Origin: Vibrio pacinii DSM 19139
GTDB lineage: Bacteria; Pseudomonadota; Gammaproteobacteria; Enterobacterales; Vibrionaceae
Length of the DNA: 64,000 nt
NCBI RefSeq assembly: GCF_000711795.1
Contig: NZ_KL543977.1
Span: forward strand, 180,934 to 244,933
Direction of reading: 5' to 3'
A model generated the notes under the pieces. That model had not been told where the DNA came from and made no database searches. It worked only from the letters and a program-made list of their open reading frames with translations. This document shows, in pieces, positions 29,612 through 61,626 of this stretch. Position numbers and translations under genes: made by a program. Every line of letters begins with the position of its first letter. Position 1 is the first letter of the stretch.

Positions 29612-31078
29612 TTATCGTTGCAAATTGTACTTTCGCATCTTCTCTACCAGCGTGGTACGACGCATACCAAGCATATCTGCAGCTCTTGCAACCACGCCAC
29701 CTTGAGCGTCTAAGGCTTGGTTGATCATATTGACTTCCAAATCAGCGAGCATCTCTTTCAAGTTGACCCCTTCCGGTGGCAAACTTTGCGGCGCATTGTC
29801 ATGCTGCTGGAAAATATCATTGGACTCGATACTGAAGTCTTCTGAGAAAATATCCTGCAGAGCATCGCGTTCTTGCTCTTCGACTGAGCCACGGTGATTA
29901 TATTCTGGTTGGAACTCAGGAATATCACTGTAACGATATTTGGTCGGTAAATGATTCACATCCACCAGACTATTAGGATAAAGAATGATCATACGCTCGA
30001 CTAAGTTAGCCAACTCGCGCACGTTACCATGCCATTCATGTTCCATTAACGAATTAATCGAACGTGGAGTAAAGCAGATCGGCAGTGCCCCTTCCGCCTC
30101 CATACGCGTCATTAATTCCTGCAGTAGCAATGGGATGTCATCTTTACGATCGCGCAGCGCTGGCATTTCAATCGGAAACACGTTCAGACGGTAGTAAAGG
30201 TCTTCACGGAAGGATTGATCCTCAATCATCGATTCTAAATCACGGTGAGTTGCCGCGATCACGCGCACATTGACGCGAATCGTGGTATTGCCACCCACCC
30301 GCTCAAAACTGCGCTCTTGCAACACGCGCAGAAGCTTAACTTGCATCGGCATTGGCATGTCACCAATTTCGTCCAAGAAAAGTGTGCCACCTTCAGCCAA
30401 TTCAAAACGACCTTTGCGTGAGGTTATCGCTCCGGTAAAGGCGCCTTTCTCATGACCAAACAGTTCACTTTCCAACAGATCCGGCGGAATAGCCCCACAG
30501 TTGATCGGCACAAAAGGACCATTACGGCGCGCCGAATGATAATGGATATTACGTGCAACGACCTCTTTACCAGTACCTGACTCGCCCAAAATCAATACAT
30601 TGGCTTCTGTGCCAGAGACTTGCTCAATTAAATGACGGACATCTTTAATGCCCATGCTCTGGCCAACTAAACTTCTAAACAGGGTGTTTTTACGTGACGA
30701 CGCAGCAACGTTGACCCCTTTACGTCCCAAAAAATCTTTGCAGTGACGTAGAGCCTCACTCAACTGCGGATAGTTAAGAGGGTATTCGAGCTCACCAACA
30801 TAGTTAGTTAACTCATCAACAGGGTATGAATGCTTGCCAGCGATTAATAGCGGAATATGGTTAGCTTGGGATAATTTGCTACTCAGCTCAGCAGAAAATT
30901 GATTGCTGTCCAAAGAACCCAGAATACAGCCAGCCCACACCTGAGACCAATCTAGATCGTCAAGCTGATGCGAAGATATCGCCTCACACTGTTCTCCAAC
31001 AAATTCTAAAATATTACTGAGACTGGTCCGCGCCTGCGCATCATCATCAATCACGAGTAGTTTTGCTAAACCTTGCAT
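29612..31078 (-). CDS. flrA: sigma-54-dependent master flagellar activator FlrA
   Basis: FlrA sits at the top of the Vibrio polar flagellar cascade and is the homologue of FleQ, whose activity is blocked by c-di-GMP. The 488-residue protein has a FleQ-type receiver-like domain without a clear phospho-Asp at the usual place, and a AAA+ domain with GESGTGKE (about 165-172), [13 protein letters not shown] (about 205-217) and [13 protein letters not shown]. The C-terminal Fis-type helix-turn-helix is [18 protein letters not shown]. The ATG at 31078 has no strong Shine-Dalgarno. Its promoter should be in the 266 bases upstream. Confidence 0.95.
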
Positions 31079-55200: not shown

Positions 55201-56046
55201 ATGAGCAAATATTCTGATGCGAAAGAGTTAACTGGCCTAACCTTGGGGCAGAAAACCGAGTATGCAAACCAATATGACCCAAGCCTGCTGCAACCTGTAC
55301 CTCGTAGCCTCAACCGCGACGACCTCAATTTAGGCCAAGATCTGCCTTTCGTAGGTTGCGATATTTGGACTTTATATGAGCTCTCTTGGCTAAATGACAA
55401 AGGTTTGCCACAGGTGGCGATTGGTGAAGTGTCAATTCCAGCCACCAGCGCCAACTTAATCGAATCAAAATCATTTAAGCTCTATCTCAACAGTTTTAAT
55501 CAAACCCGTTTTTCAGGCTGGGATGACGTTGAAAAGAGACTGATCAAGGATCTGTCAGCCTGCGCGGGTGAAACAGTCGATGTGACCTTGCGCTCAGTTG
55601 ACGACTATACCGATAGCGTGATCGTCACGATGGATGGTGACTGTATTGATGCTCAAGATATCGAAATCACCAGTTATGATTTTGACCGTAATCTATTAGC
55701 GGGCGCCGCAAGCGGTGAGTGGGTCACAGAAAGTCTTCATAGCCATCTGCTAAAATCCAACTGTCTTATCACTAACCAGCCTGATTGGGGTAGTGTTGAG
55801 ATTCACTACACGGGTAAACAGCTCGATCGTGAAGCGCTACTGCGTTATATCGTCTCTTTCCGCGAACACAATGAATTCCACGAACAGTGTGTGGAACGCA
55901 TCTTTACGGACATTACGCAGTTCTGCCAACCTCAATCCTTAACCGTTTATGCGCGTTATACACGTCGTGGTGGACTCGATATTAATCCATATCGCTCAAA
56001 CATCAGCAGTCAGCCTAACCACAACCAACGTATGGCTCGTCAATAA
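55201..56046 (+). CDS. queF: NADPH-dependent 7-cyano-7-deazaguanine reductase QueF
   Basis: QueF reduces preQ0 to preQ1 in queuosine synthesis. The 281-residue protein is the long, two-domain form (YqeH/E. coli type): the substrate motif [15 protein letters not shown] lies in the first half and the catalytic Cys and Asp in [14 protein letters not shown] in the second. No riboswitch is seen in the 84 bases shared with syd. Confidence 0.95.
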
Positions 56047-56059
56047 GGAACACATCTCT

Positions 56060-58330
56060 ATGGTGAAAGTACGCTGCATGCGCATTGTTGGCGCATTGTT
56101 GTTACTGCTCGCTTGGCCATTGATGGCCAACACGATTTACGCATCAGCAAGCTTAAGTGAAGCGAACAACTTGGTTAATGTCGTGCCGCATCAGGCCAAA
56201 CAACTGGTCAGCGACTACCTCGAGCAGCGTACTATTTCGGATAAGACCGAGCAAAGCCCATCGGCGATGTCACGTGATGAAGCCGATAGTCGTATTCGTA
56301 CTCCCGGCAGTACCATAGATGCTCTGCGCATTCTTGCTCAAGCAGAATATAACTTAGGCAACACCCTTCAAGCGTTGAAGCATTTACGTGAAGCGCACAT
56401 TATCGCTGAAAGTTATCATCTTCCATATCTGTCTATTAGTGTCGATTTGCAGCAAACCGAATTAATTTGGCTTATCGATCACGACAGTGATAAAGCACGT
56501 AACAAATTGGCTCAACTAGAAAATAGTTTCTCTAGCATTGAAAACCCGCAACAATTGTTACGTGGACTCGGCTATCGGATGTTGATGTTTAAAGCGCGTA
56601 TTGCATCAAAACAAGGCAACATTGCTTTGGCAGACGAGCTTTATTTACAAGCCAAAGACTATGTTGACAGTACCGATACCACTTCTATCTTTATCGACTA
56701 CCACACCACGGTCGGCCAACACCTACTGGCGAACAAACAATACAACCGCGCTTTGTCTGAATTACTGATCAGTTATTGGAAGGCGATAGAGAAAGACTCC
56801 GCCAATCAACTAGCACAAGTCAACCGCCTACTCGGTCAGCTTTTTTACGAACGTAAGGTGTTAGACAAGGCCAATGACCACTACTCACAAGCCGCCGACT
56901 ACTACGATAATTATCAGGGCTCACCTGCGCTGCCACCAATACTAAAAAGTATGGGCGACATTTATTACCATCAAGGCAAATACAATCTCGCCTTGGTCCA
57001 TTACTTCAATGCCATGGATCACGACCGGCTCAACAACAATATCGATAATATTATCGAATTGCATATCGCTCTTGCCTCAACTTACCTTAAGCTGGTCAAC
57101 TACCCTTTGGCCGAACAATATCTAGAGCGTGCCCAAGAGCTACTCCAATTCGCCAACATTCCGCGCTTAAAGTCTTATGCGCTATTACTTGAAGCTGAGT
57201 TAGCCCAATATCAAAGTCAACCACAGCAAGCAATCGACCGAGCCAAACAAGCCCTTAACATTGCGCGTGAAGAGCAAGATGTGAGCCTCGAAAAGATGGC
57301 CTACAAGATGCTCTACTTGGGCTATGAATTAGACAACCAGTATCAACTGGCTCTTGAGAGCCTAAAGCAGTACGACTCACTAGCAACCATTGAGCAACAA
57401 GAACTCGACTTGATCAGTGAAGATGCTTTTCGTCAGCAGAAAGAGTTTGTCGAGCAAACGCTGCACTTAAATAGTCAAAGACAAGAACTTGAGCAGACAC
57501 AAAGCGACCACCGTAAGTTTCAAAATATTACCTTAACGCTGTTTATCCTCAGTGCGATTTTATTTCTTTTCCTGATGAGACGTGGCCATATCATCGGTTT
57601 GCAAAATGAAGAACTCGACGCACTCAATGAAGATCTTTACACTCACTCGCGTTCAGGCTTAAAGAACTTACGCATGCTGAACGCGCGTTTGCCCGCTTCA
57701 CTCGAAGAGAGTAATCACAAGTTTGAAAAATGGCATGTGGGTGAACTTATTCATGAGCCGCTCAACGATCGATTACGTTTTGTGATGATCGATATCCCTT
57801 TCTTACGCAACATGTACTTGCAACATGGCTATCAAGAAGGGCTAAAACTGGAGCGTGCTTTTGGTGATTTTCTAAAAGAGCGAGTGACGCACCCGGCGCG
57901 AATCTACCACTTCTCAGATGCTAATTTGCTTTATATCGAACCGAACAGTGAACAGAACACACAACCTGAGCAAGTGTTTGAAAAAATCCAACAATGGATC
58001 TTAGAGTTTGAACCTGAGCGTCACATCAATCGAATTATTCGTATCGGCATGGCGGACTACCCATTCCTACCCAGAGCTTACACCGCGGTCAATGATAAGG
58101 AACTGATTGATGTGCTACTTATGTCAACAAGCACTGCACGCACACTCAGTATGAAAGAACATTGCAGTCAGTGGGTCTATTTACGGGCGATTGAAAACGC
58201 TCCAGCCGCCAGTTTAGCCACCGGAAATATCCGCAAAGCATGTAAACATTCGATAAATCAAGGCTTGATCAAAGTCCACTCTTCGTTCAAGAATGAGGAC
58301 AGTATCAAAAAACTATTAAAAGATGAGTAA
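56060..58330 (+). CDS. membrane TPR protein with degenerate GGDEF domain
   Basis: From the ATG at 56060 the protein has 756 residues: a signal sequence (about 7-28), periplasmic TPR repeats (about 95-450), a coiled segment, a membrane helix (about 492-512) and a cytoplasmic C-terminal domain. That domain aligns in pattern with GGDEF proteins (SGLKNLRMLNARL for TGLxNRRxL; FVMIDIPFLRNMYLQHGYQEG for the metal region), but the active-site loop reads FSDAN instead of GGDEF, so it should not make c-di-GMP. It starts 13 bases after queF and precedes a diguanylate cyclase gene by 99 bases. A sensing or scaffold role is inferred. Confidence 0.8.
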   Translation: MVKVRCMRIVGALLLLLAWPLMANTIYASASLSEANNLVNVVPHQAKQLVSDYLEQRTISDKTEQSPSAMSRDEADSRIRTPGSTIDALRILAQAEYNLGNTLQALKHLREAHIIAESYHLPYLSISVDLQQTELIWLIDHDSDKARNKLAQLENSFSSIENPQQLLRGLGYRMLMFKARIASKQGNIALADELYLQAKDYVDSTDTTSIFIDYHTTVGQHLLANKQYNRALSELLISYWKAIEKDSANQLAQVNRLLGQLFYERKVLDKANDHYSQAADYYDNYQGSPALPPILKSMGDIYYHQGKYNLALVHYFNAMDHDRLNNNIDNIIELHIALASTYLKLVNYPLAEQYLERAQELLQFANIPRLKSYALLLEAELAQYQSQPQQAIDRAKQALNIAREEQDVSLEKMAYKMLYLGYELDNQYQLALESLKQYDSLATIEQQELDLISEDAFRQQKEFVEQTLHLNSQRQELEQTQSDHRKFQNITLTLFILSAILFLFLMRRGHIIGLQNEELDALNEDLYTHSRSGLKNLRMLNARLPASLEESNHKFEKWHVGELIHEPLNDRLRFVMIDIPFLRNMYLQHGYQEGLKLERAFGDFLKERVTHPARIYHFSDANLLYIEPNSEQNTQPEQVFEKIQQWILEFEPERHINRIIRIGMADYPFLPRAYTAVNDKELIDVLLMSTSTARTLSMKEHCSQWVYLRAIENAPAASLATGNIRKACKHSINQGLIKVHSSFKNEDSIKKLLKDE

Positions 58331-58429
58331 AAGCTCGGCAATCGCACTCACTAAGTCGTGACGGCCCCGATTTATTTGATATTATCGACAGATTAATAAA
58401 TAGCATTAGAATCCAACTTAAGTTTATTC

Positions 58430-59995
58430 ATGGGTGTTCTTGAGCAAGATCTTCAGTCACAGCTGCACAAGCTGAAATCTCAATTGGAACAAGTCCGATT
58501 GACACAGCGGGACACCTCGTTCAAATTTAAAAGAGAACAGAAGGTCCTTCAGCGCATCATTGCGTCGCTAAGTTGTGCCTATAAAACTGAAAACCCGCGT
58601 TTAAACGCAGGGTTAACTGAGCTCAAACAAGCTATCGAGCAACAGCAAGACGTCAGTACTCTAATTCCAAAACTAGCCGTTTTGGAGCGTTTGCTTAAAC
58701 AACAAGGCTTGGCTATGGATAAACACACCGATCATCTTGACTCGCAAATAAAACACAGCGGTGAAACCTTGTTGAGGCTGACGGGTTTACCGGCCAAGGT
58801 CAAACGCGATTTACGCGATTTGCTGAGCTATTCTAATGGCCTTAAGCACCCAAAGGCTGAACAGGCCGTGCGTTTACTGAGCCTGTATGAGCGTTCTGTT
58901 AAAATTATCACTGCCAATCCTGAACACACCATCAATCAAATCGCAAATAGCTCAGACCGAGAATTACTACTAAGACTTTCTGATGAACTTCAGCACTTAA
59001 TCACCGAACTTGATTTCGAAGGTGAGTCGGGAGAGTTGTTGTCCGATATTCGTGCCAAGCTTCTGATTGGAGTTAATAGCCATGTGCTGCTTGAATTAAC
59101 TCTACAAACTCTGAAACTGGTTATTGATGGCACAAATTATGAGCGTAAAACGTCAGAGCAGTTCTTAGAACAAGTCAACGCAAGCCTCTCTTCGTCTTTA
59201 AAAAGCTCAACGCAAAACGTACAGCAGTCGCACAGTTATTTTCAGCATAGACAAGAGATGAGCGGTGAACTCGCCGATCTGATTGACAGTACCCAATCAA
59301 AAGTAACACAAGCCACATCACTAGATGGACTCAAAGCTGAAGTTAACCCTTTACTCACTCAACTGAATTCGCTTTCAGAACGTTTGAAGCACGCAGAGCA
59401 ACGTGAGCAATCCCTGCTTGAACGGATGAGTTATGGCAAAAACCAACTTGAAGCCCTCTTTGAAGTAACCCAAGATTATCGCCGTCGTCTTGAAGATCAA
59501 GCGCAACGTATGTTGTTGGATCCACTGACTAAGGTTTACAACCGCGCCGCATTTGGCGACCGTTTAGAGCTAGAGTATCGACGCTGGATTCGTGCTCAGC
59601 ACCCTTTACGCGTTGTGATACTAGACATTGATGGTTTTAAATCGATTAACGATAGTTTTGGTTACACCGCTGGTGACAAAGCGCTGAAGATTATTGCGCG
59701 TACGATTAAAAAAGAGCTGCAAGATACCGATACTGTGGCTCGTTTTTCTGGTGAAGAGTTTATTTTACTGCTCCCAGAGGTCAGTGATAACGATGCGTTT
59801 AATGTCATTCAAGCCATTCAAAAACAAGTGGCTAAACTGCCATTCAAGTTCCGCGATCGCCACCTCACCATTACTCTTTCGGCAGCCAGTACCGCCTTTA
59901 AAGACTCCGACACACCAGAAGAGATACTCGAACGTTTGAATCTGTGTCTCAACGAAGCTAAAACACTCGGTAACAGCCAACTGGTTTGGCGTTAA
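58430..59995 (+). CDS. GGDEF diguanylate cyclase with long coiled-coil N-terminus (DgcP-like)
   Basis: The 521-residue soluble protein has a helical, coiled-coil N-terminal region (about 1-350) and a GGDEF domain (about 360-520). Metal-binding Asp (ILDIDGFKSINDSFG) and the active-site loop ARFSGEEF are intact in kind; SGEEF replaces GGEEF. The inhibitory I-site RxxD is altered to QDTD. The N-terminal pattern (FKREQKVLQRIIASLS) recalls Pseudomonas DgcP, a pole-localised cyclase tied to FimV; that link is from memory and tentative. No strong Shine-Dalgarno is seen. Confidence 0.87.
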   Translation: MGVLEQDLQSQLHKLKSQLEQVRLTQRDTSFKFKREQKVLQRIIASLSCAYKTENPRLNAGLTELKQAIEQQQDVSTLIPKLAVLERLLKQQGLAMDKHTDHLDSQIKHSGETLLRLTGLPAKVKRDLRDLLSYSNGLKHPKAEQAVRLLSLYERSVKIITANPEHTINQIANSSDRELLLRLSDELQHLITELDFEGESGELLSDIRAKLLIGVNSHVLLELTLQTLKLVIDGTNYERKTSEQFLEQVNASLSSSLKSSTQNVQQSHSYFQHRQEMSGELADLIDSTQSKVTQATSLDGLKAEVNPLLTQLNSLSERLKHAEQREQSLLERMSYGKNQLEALFEVTQDYRRRLEDQAQRMLLDPLTKVYNRAAFGDRLELEYRRWIRAQHPLRVVILDIDGFKSINDSFGYTAGDKALKIIARTIKKELQDTDTVARFSGEEFILLLPEVSDNDAFNVIQAIQKQVAKLPFKFRDRHLTITLSAASTAFKDSDTPEEILERLNLCLNEAKTLGNSQLVWR

Positions 59996-60261: not shown

Positions 60262-61626
60262 ATGATTACTCATATCAGTCCAGCGGGTAGTATGGACTTA
60301 CTTTCTCAACTTGAAGTTGAGCGTCTTAAGAAAACCGCTACCAGTGATCTGTATCAACTCTACCGCAACTGTACTCTCGCGGTGCTCAACTCTGGTGCGC
60401 ATACTGACAACTCCAAAGAACTATTAGACAAGTATCAAGATTTTGATGTCAATGTGATGCGCCGTGAACGTGGCATCAAATTAGAACTCATCAATGCCCC
60501 TGATCACGCTTTTGTCGACGGAGAGATCATCAAAGGGATCCAAGAACATCTCTTTTCGGTCCTGCGTGACATTGTCTACGTCAATATGCACCTGGCCGAC
60601 AATCAGCGCCTTAACTTAACTAACCCAAGCCATATCACTAACTTGGTGTTTGGTATATTGCGCAATGCCGGTGCCCTGACGCCAAGGATTGAGCCAAATC
60701 TTGTTGTCTGTTGGGGCGGTCACTCCATTAACGCCACCGAATACCAATATACCCGTGAAGTCGGCAATGAGCTTGGGTTACGTGAAATGAACATCTGTAC
60801 TGGCTGTGGACCTGGTGCAATGGAAGGGCCAATGAAAGGGGCCGCGATTGGGCACGCTAAGCAGCGCTACTATGATCAGCGTTATCTTGGCTTAACCGAA
60901 CCCTCCATCATTGCTGCTGAGCCGCCCAACCCTATCGTCAATGAACTGGTGATCATGCCTGATATTGAGAAGCGACTCGAAGCGTTTGTTCGCATGGCGC
61001 ACGGTATTGTCATCTTCCCTGGCGGTGCAGGTACAGCCGAAGAGCTGCTCTACATTCTCGGCATTATGATGCACCCAGAGAATGCCGAACAGCCACTCAG
61101 AATTGTTCTCACCGGACCAAAGGAAAGTGAAGAGTATTTCTTTTCGATTGACCAGTTCATTGGTGAGACACTAGGCAGTGAAGCGCAAAAACACTATCAA
61201 ATTGTTATCGATGATCCTGCCAAAGTAGCGCAAATTATGAAGCAAGGTATGGTCGATGTACGCCAACACCGCAAAGACCATGGCGATGCCTACAGCTTTA
61301 GTTGGTCGCTCAATATTGAACCTGAATTCCAGATGCCATTTGAACCGACCCACGCCAATATGGCGAGCCTTGACTTGCATCTCGATCAACCACCGGAAGC
61401 GTTAGCCGCAGCGCTGCGACGCGCTTTCTCAGGTATTGTTGCAGGTAACGTAAAATCAGAGGGTATTCTAGAGATCGAACAGCATGGTCCATATCAATTA
61501 GATGGCGATCCTCGCTTAATGGCTAAGATGGACAAATTGCTCAAAGATTTTGTTGCTCAAGATAGAATGAAGCTGCCCGGCGGCACGGCATACGACCCTT
61601 GCTATAGAATCAAAACCAGCAACTAG
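60262..61626 (+). CDS. ppnN: pyrimidine/purine nucleotide 5'-monophosphate nucleosidase
   Basis: PpnN (YgdH) splits nucleoside monophosphates to base and ribose 5-phosphate and is stimulated by (p)ppGpp. The 454-residue protein has an N-terminal PpnN domain, a LOG-type Rossmann core with the [13 protein letters not shown] motif (PGGxGTxxE) and a C-terminal domain. AAGGGG lies before the ATG. The 266 bases upstream are A/T-rich and should hold the promoter; I see no defined motif. A terminator follows. Confidence 0.95.

Follow-up and report, generated by a model that had tools for sequence, protein, structure and literature searches.

What does a membrane protein with an inactive cyclase domain do beside a second protein of the cyclase type? 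The question is raised by two adjacent genes of Vibrio pacinii DSM 19139 (assembly GCF_000711795.1, contig NZ_KL543977.1), which lie in a stretch of 64,000 nucleotides (positions 180,934 to 244,933 of the forward strand; hereafter the window, to which positions refer). Gene 1 encodes a protein with tetratricopeptide repeats (TPRs) and a degenerate GGDEF domain (hereafter the dead domain), and gene 2 is the orthologue of cdgG. The original prediction for this locus, made from the sequence of the window, proposed that the dead domain docks on or regulates an active gene 2 enzyme, whose product, cyclic di-GMP (c-di-GMP), would feed back on FlrA. We found that queF and ppnN flank the pair, which forms a module of old standing, that gene 1 stands without cdgG in 22 of 247 Vibrionaceae genomes, against a single genome with the reverse, and that gene 1 stays under purifying selection after the loss of cdgG. 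Regulating CdgG therefore cannot be the only job of gene 1.

The dead domain and its neighbor

The architecture claimed for gene 1 (TPRs, then a membrane helix, then a GGDEF-like domain whose loop is FSDAN) held, as did both reading frames, each running from an ATG to a stop at the limits given in table 1. With a hydropathy criterion of a mean of 1.6 or more in 19-residue windows, gene 1 has one internal hydrophobic stretch besides its hydrophobic N-terminus, and its TPR_12 match exceeds the Pfam cut-off. The TPRs are probably periplasmic, because an N-terminal hydrophobic stretch followed by a single membrane helix would place them on that side.

Several comparisons support a GGDEF-like but degenerate C-terminal domain. 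An alignment of 33 dead domains matched one of 31 GGDEF domains in hhalign with a probability of 96%, an E value of 2.2e-9 and a score of 66.2, whereas 100 column shuffles scored 21.35 at best and the reversed alignment 13.5. Moreover, the nine top matches of the dead-domain profile to sequences from the Protein Data Bank (PDB) were all GGDEF proteins (best E 2e-5), and six of the 33 members matched Pfam GGDEF singly, the best at 5.2e-7. The single sequence of gene 1 gave no Pfam GGDEF match, and the gene does not appear among the PF00990 matches of the genome it belongs to. An AlphaFold2 model of the domain, built on a shallow alignment of 15 close relatives, had a mean predicted local distance difference test score (pLDDT) of only 42.4; with this low-confidence model the Foldseek matches ranked 1 to 36 were all GGDEF chains, weak ones (best E 4.7e-3) with none at E 0.001. 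The catalytic GG[DE]EF motif occurs at the loop in none of the 85 readable rows of the gene 1 alignment (of 86 rows, the last, L183, has a split frame), and RxxD is absent before the loop of gene 1, where the residues are KERVTHPARIYHFSDAN. Thus, gene 1 carries neither the motif of an active diguanylate cyclase nor that of an I-site receptor of c-di-GMP. In the open-licence literature we found no published description of it as a degenerate GGDEF protein.

Gene 2 was described correctly as a soluble cyclase-type protein with an SGEEF loop and no RxxD; QDTD stands at the I-site position, no hydrophobic window reaches 1.6 and no TPR is matched at E 0.01. Its AlphaFold2 model, also from a shallow alignment, had a mean pLDDT of 61.8. 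The loop departs from GG[DE]EF, but this does not settle the question of activity, as there are enzymes with SGDEF and AGDEF. CdgG reportedly goes back to Beyhan et al. 2008, and VC0901 is, judging by position, presumably the V. cholerae orthologue of gene 1. The identification of gene 2 as CdgG relies on V. fischeri, because the primers for VF_0596 match exactly, in their comparable gene-specific parts, the start and end of a DGCcoil gene that adjoins a gene 1 orthologue (locus record L217), and because VF_0596 is the gene in which the SAEEF mutation ascribed to CdgG was made (PMC11575326). The CdgG of PMC7112168 is a different protein, from Bacillus.

That gene 2 is an active enzyme, as first proposed, is not supported by the published data on its orthologues. 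Overexpression of V. fischeri CdgG, which has SGEEF, or of its SAEEF variant left cellulose and motility unaffected, and V. cholerae CdgG is termed non-functional in the same account, which also mentions another study in which a cdgG deletion reduced motility (PMC11575326). Substitutions of the first glycine of GGDEF loops have idiosyncratic effects, so the null phenotype in V. fischeri is not proof (PMC3974145). With its feedback site lost and an SGEEF loop, the CdgG of V. pacinii may be weak or inactive, and its role may be to bind a partner, not to supply c-di-GMP. VC0900 and VC0901 form a predicted operon, in which VC0901 is given only as a hypothetical protein (PMC9201469).

Linkage, decay of CdgG and selection on gene 1

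Among the 247 Vibrionaceae genomes, PF20975 (the DGCcoil family of gene 2) was found in 220 and the dead domain in 241; both genes are present in 219, gene 1 only in the 22 mentioned above, cdgG only in one (G014) and neither in five. The 22 genomes with gene 1 only were all rechecked, and the unlisted PF20975 negatives were deduced from the result table; one of the 22 (G152) is 74% complete and two (G041 and G067) comprise more than 300 contigs each. We also compared 155 locus records of the family, which were selected because at least one of the genes is present in them and which include 18 named records that may duplicate species of others. The two genes are adjacent on one strand in 135 of them, gene 1 stands alone in 19 and cdgG in one. 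In the 19 loci fetched for the 22 cdgG-less genomes, ppnN comes after gene 1 and cdgG gives no match. The order syd, queF, gene 1, cdgG, ppnN is conserved.

The association extends beyond the family. In an order-wide sample of 128 genomes, PF20975 is present in 71 and the dead domain in 31, and PF20975 accompanies gene 1 in 29 of 31 genomes but occurs in only 42 of the 97 without gene 1 (Fisher p 2.4e-7, for species that are not independent). Outside Vibrionaceae, a TPR gene with a dead GGDEF domain lies directly upstream of the cdgG-like gene in 30 of 40 loci, drawn from 65 PF20975-positive genomes, according to a wide model whose alignment contained 15 of these 30; a narrow model recovers 22, and six of the 40 loci have a weak match, or none, to the Vibrio coil model. 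In a class-wide set of 143 genomes, PF20975 alone was found in 53. The original prediction would have failed had the genes been unlinked elsewhere or the domain not GGDEF-like; instead, the linkage is seen in other genomes and the domain is GGDEF-like.

Three of the outside loci in which no gene 1 was found (L154:3211-4995, L160:2015-3862 and L181:1865-3685) have, upstream of the cdgG-like gene, an oppositely oriented frame of about 600 amino acids (aa). These frames may resemble M61 peptidases.

CdgG itself has repeatedly decayed or been lost inside Vibrionaceae. Its relatives outside the family read GGEEF in 40 of 40 cases and RxxD in 24 of 40. In contrast, among the 118 Vibrionaceae genomes whose loop was read, out of the 220 with cdgG, we found GG[DE]EF in 26, [SA]G[DE]EF in 64 and other loops in 28; RxxD is kept in 21 and the I-site is gone in 97. 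Eighteen of the 28 other loops (NDDAF, SDDAF and DGDKF among them) belong to a single genus (g8), for which 20 genomes were read, the remaining two having GGDEF. In g8 loci such as L213, L218, L219 and L242-L249, cdgG is open and constrained with loops including NDDAF, SDDAF and GDDAF, and CdgG of this genus is likely a second pseudoenzyme. On the other hand, seven genera (g3, g5, g6, g7, g9, g10 and g13) show GGEEF in every sampled genome (one to four each). On a tree built quickly from 60 proteins of gene 1, the presence of cdgG needs a minimum of four changes, three of them in the genus and on separate well-supported clades.

Shortened cdgG frames were also observed. In L191, L192 and L193 (genomes G149, G151 and G207), and likewise in G180, G104, G112 and G167, the frame is short at its coil end (434-473 aa) beside an intact gene 1; G104, G167 and G207 have in-frame stops within the match.

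The history of gene 1 is different. Its frame is open and free of stops in all 22 cdgG-less genomes. The ratio of nonsynonymous to synonymous divergence (dN/dS) of the dead domain, to be read with synonymous divergence (dS) above 1 in several pairs, was 0.032, 0.086, 0.033 and 0.020 in four cdgG-less pairs, a fifth such pair being saturated, and 0 to 0.044 in eight cdgG-bearing pairs; the dead domain is therefore under strong constraint. When pairs are binned by divergence, the GGDEF domain of CdgG has diverged more than the dead domain in three of four bins, and in three bins the divergence of the dead domain is alike in cdgG-less and cdgG-bearing pairs. Within clades, changes in the core relative to those in the TPR region amounted to 0.61-0.77 where cdgG is absent and 0.43-0.78 elsewhere. 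Genus g8 offers a direct comparison, with dN/dS of 0.059-0.381 for the GGDEF domain of CdgG in 11 pairs versus 0.018-0.076 for the dead domain in the seven of these that are not saturated. Based on these dN/dS and divergence comparisons, of the two proteins the dead one is the steadier. Since gene 1 is kept and constrained without cdgG, it must do something without CdgG.

A candidate docking site was also considered. In the closest bin, the median divergence of the C-terminal extension of gene 1 was 0.119 in cdgG-less and 0.048 in CdgG-bearing pairs, as if a dock for CdgG had relaxed after the loss of cdgG. We rejected this candidate: the within-clade parsimony ratio of ratios was 1.11, a value reached or exceeded in 75 of the 185 sliding windows tried and in 1329 of 5000 random column sets.

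What the pair may do

The reading we favor, with a probability of about one half, is that of an old signaling module in which the pseudo-GGDEF domain ancestrally binds and controls CdgG, while gene 1 has an additional output independent of CdgG. Gene 1 would be a membrane protein that senses through periplasmic TPRs and carries a pseudo-GGDEF domain in the cytoplasm; gene 2 is the soluble coiled-coil GGDEF protein CdgG. The pseudo-GGDEF domain would bind CdgG, either GGDEF to GGDEF or through the coil, and thereby control the assembly, place or activity of the cyclase; the second output would keep selection on gene 1 where cdgG is gone. A more tentative version makes gene 1 the hub of the module, with an output other than c-di-GMP synthesis, and CdgG an accessory that in Vibrionaceae is becoming a second pseudoenzyme or being dropped. 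A linked prediction is that the verdict of inactivity on CdgG would stem in part from assays in which its gene 1 partner was not supplied in matching amounts.

Some observations weigh against this module. The binding of HapR at the cdgG promoter (PMC7472637) suggests that cdgG is not only co-transcribed with gene 1. Ten of the 40 outside loci carry a CdgG-like gene without a recognizable gene 1, and in G014 (L207), which alone among the Vibrionaceae sampled has cdgG and no gene 1, queF is directly followed by cdgG. One of the four cdgG losses (L143) rests on a long branch. In the fourth divergence bin the dead domain, at 0.310, is more diverged than the GGDEF domain of CdgG, at 0.296, and in the bin of PpnN divergence 0.12-0.18 it reached 0.553 in cdgG-less pairs (n=15) against 0.350 in cdgG-bearing pairs (n=210), which could reflect some relaxation.

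The proposal of an active cyclase that is docked and regulated by the dead domain, with c-di-GMP feeding back on FlrA, is doubtful in our view. A FleQ-family sigma-54 activator at 29612-31078 fits FlrA and has Arg at residues 135 and 176, the positions of the c-di-GMP contacts in V. cholerae FlrA. Nevertheless, the genome holds 58 GGDEF-domain matches (PF00990) and the two loci lie about 25 kb apart, which makes a private FlrA loop unlikely and the feedback unspecific. As for catalysis, the alignment shows that in this clade CdgG keeps the metal-site DxD and the residues GEEF, activity is possible for enzymes with SGDEF or AGDEF (PMC3974145; VF_A0057 in PMC11575326), and RcbB is little active without RcbA (PMC12282931), so tests of CdgG alone may mislead. 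Against this stand the silence of the overexpressed SGEEF CdgG in V. fischeri, where the chromosomal partner gene is expected, the V. cholerae protein termed non-functional (PMC11575326), the inactivity of VCA0965 once the first loop position is Ser (PMC3974145) and the 22 genomes in which gene 1 outlives cdgG. Of the original interpretation, then, the linkage and the GGDEF-like domain stand, whereas an active CdgG and a specific feedback on FlrA are not supported.

At the other extreme, both GGDEF domains might be non-catalytic in Vibrionaceae, with CdgG a c-di-GMP-independent partner or anchor for gene 1. The broken loops among the 118, concentrated in g8 where cdgG is nevertheless open and constrained, fit such a role, as does the general loss of the I-site. 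V. cholerae CdgG (VC0900), although listed with RxxD, was negative in a c-di-GMP binding screen, a result tempered by the authors' own account that the assay (DRaCALA) misses many true binders (PMC4624772). We consider this explanation unlikely for the family as a whole, given that 26 of the 118 keep GG[DE]EF and seven genera are uniformly GGEEF, so that catalysis is probably kept in part of it. Less probable again is that the two genes are neighbors only through inherited synteny, within a housekeeping block that is itself stable (syd, queF, ppnN, xni, rlmM), and that they have no joint function. The entire block is conserved and each gene is sometimes found alone, as this would predict; yet the pair is still adjacent where the flanks differ or diverge strongly, the two genes co-occur across the order far beyond the frequency of PF20975 without gene 1, and, in a genome with 58 matches, that two proteins of the GGDEF type are neighbors is a weak coincidence.

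Counts based on Pfam GGDEF overlook gene 1, which leaves a conserved and strongly constrained protein of the c-di-GMP type as a hypothetical one next to a biofilm regulator known from the literature. Should gene 1 control or anchor CdgG, two genes would suffice for a direct test of how CdgG acts without cyclase activity. Should gene 1 instead work without CdgG, a pseudo-cyclase that outlives its enzyme would be a clear case of a dead signaling domain gaining a function of its own.

The locus and related systems

The gene order is syd (minus strand), queF, gene 1, cdgG, ppnN, xni and rlmM (minus strand), with 13 bp between queF and gene 1, 99 bp between gene 1 and cdgG and 266 bp between cdgG and ppnN (table 1). 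In the close relative V. salilacus (L022) the two proteins are 96% and 98% identical to those described here. We also looked for a private promoter or terminator between gene 1 and cdgG. Seven promoter-like sites were found against 8.7 expected, one of them in this gap (58385-58412), and no terminator-like site is listed for the plus strand at 58331-58429; these results are not informative.

Table 1. Features of the pair and its flanking genes, in positions of the window
Feature	Position	Strand	Evidence
queF, conserved upstream neighbor	55201..56046	+	NCBIfam QueF equivalog, synteny
Gene 1, dead-GGDEF TPR protein (TPR/membrane helix/degenerate GGDEF), 756 aa	56060..58330	+	
Signal-like hydrophobic N-terminus of gene 1, about residues 1-24	56060..56131	+	hydropathy; cleavage predicted by no tool
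TPR region of gene 1, about residues 87-470	56318..57470	+	Pfam TPR matches; outer limit is our reading
Membrane helix of gene 1, about residues 487-514	57518..57601	+	hydropathy; followed by RRGH, positive-inside by eye
Degenerate GGDEF domain of gene 1, about residues 525-708	57632..58183	+	hhalign, shuffle control, PDB profile search
FSDAN in place of catalytic hairpin, gene 1 residues 618-622	57911..57925	+	
C-terminal extension past the GGDEF core, gene 1 residues about 709-756	58184..58327	+	divergence data
Gene 2, cdgG orthologue (DGCcoil + GGDEF), soluble, 521 aa	58430..59995	+	
DGCcoil (PF20975), gene 2 residues 5-344	58442..59461	+	287.9 bits (cut-off 26.7)
GGDEF domain, gene 2 residues 363-516	59516..59977	+	129 bits (cut-off 23.8)
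I-site position of gene 2, QDTD in place of RxxD	59720..59731	+	
SGEEF loop, gene 2 residues 440-444	59747..59761	+	sequence, alignment
ppnN, conserved downstream neighbor, directly after gene 1 where cdgG is lost	60262..61626	+	NCBIfam PpnN equivalog

Degenerate GGDEF domains act as receptors and scaffolds in LapD, PopA, FimX and CdgC/CsrD. Gene 1 would resemble these proteins in keeping the GGDEF fold and losing catalysis for a regulatory role. It differs from them in having N-terminal periplasmic TPRs, as predicted, and in lacking both an EAL domain and RxxD, so that it has no known c-di-GMP site.

The nearest worked example is RcbAB of V. vulnificus, a different operon, in which the TPR protein RcbA de-represses and anchors the cyclase RcbB by binding its partner; in Escherichia coli, RcbB alone raised c-di-GMP about 1.5-fold, and nearly 4-fold together with RcbA (PMC12282931). 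As in our pair, a TPR protein stands beside a cyclase-type protein. However, RcbB has TPRs of its own and an intact motif, whereas gene 2 has a DGCcoil in place of the N-terminal TPRs expected of an RcbB-type cyclase, and rcbAB lies mostly on the smaller chromosome. A separate rcbAB-like pair is present in the V. pacinii genome (L259:371-3419, equivalent to G000:C6:156370-159418), recognized from architecture, with no comparison to the proteins of V. vulnificus: a TPR protein of 495 aa followed by a TPR-GGDEF protein of 526 aa with GGEEF. The C-terminal region of RcbA-type proteins (20 rows) matched the GGDEF alignment in hhalign with a score of 25.1 (probability 9%, E 0.0036), the best of 60 shuffles scoring 21.2, and in the 495-aa protein this weak match falls at the hairpin position. 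Against the dead-domain alignment the same region gave no match (14.7, with shuffles up to 19.3). That RcbA also ends in a degenerate GGDEF domain may be taken as a lead only.

The closest known protein to gene 2 is CdgG itself (VC0900 in V. cholerae, VF_0596 in V. fischeri), which has the same DGCcoil; VF_0596 shares the SGEEF loop and the neighboring gene 1 orthologue, whereas V. cholerae CdgG is listed with the RxxD that gene 2 lacks (PMC4624772). The pair is well conserved and under-described, while a pseudoenzyme paired with a cyclase-type protein is an arrangement of an already known kind.

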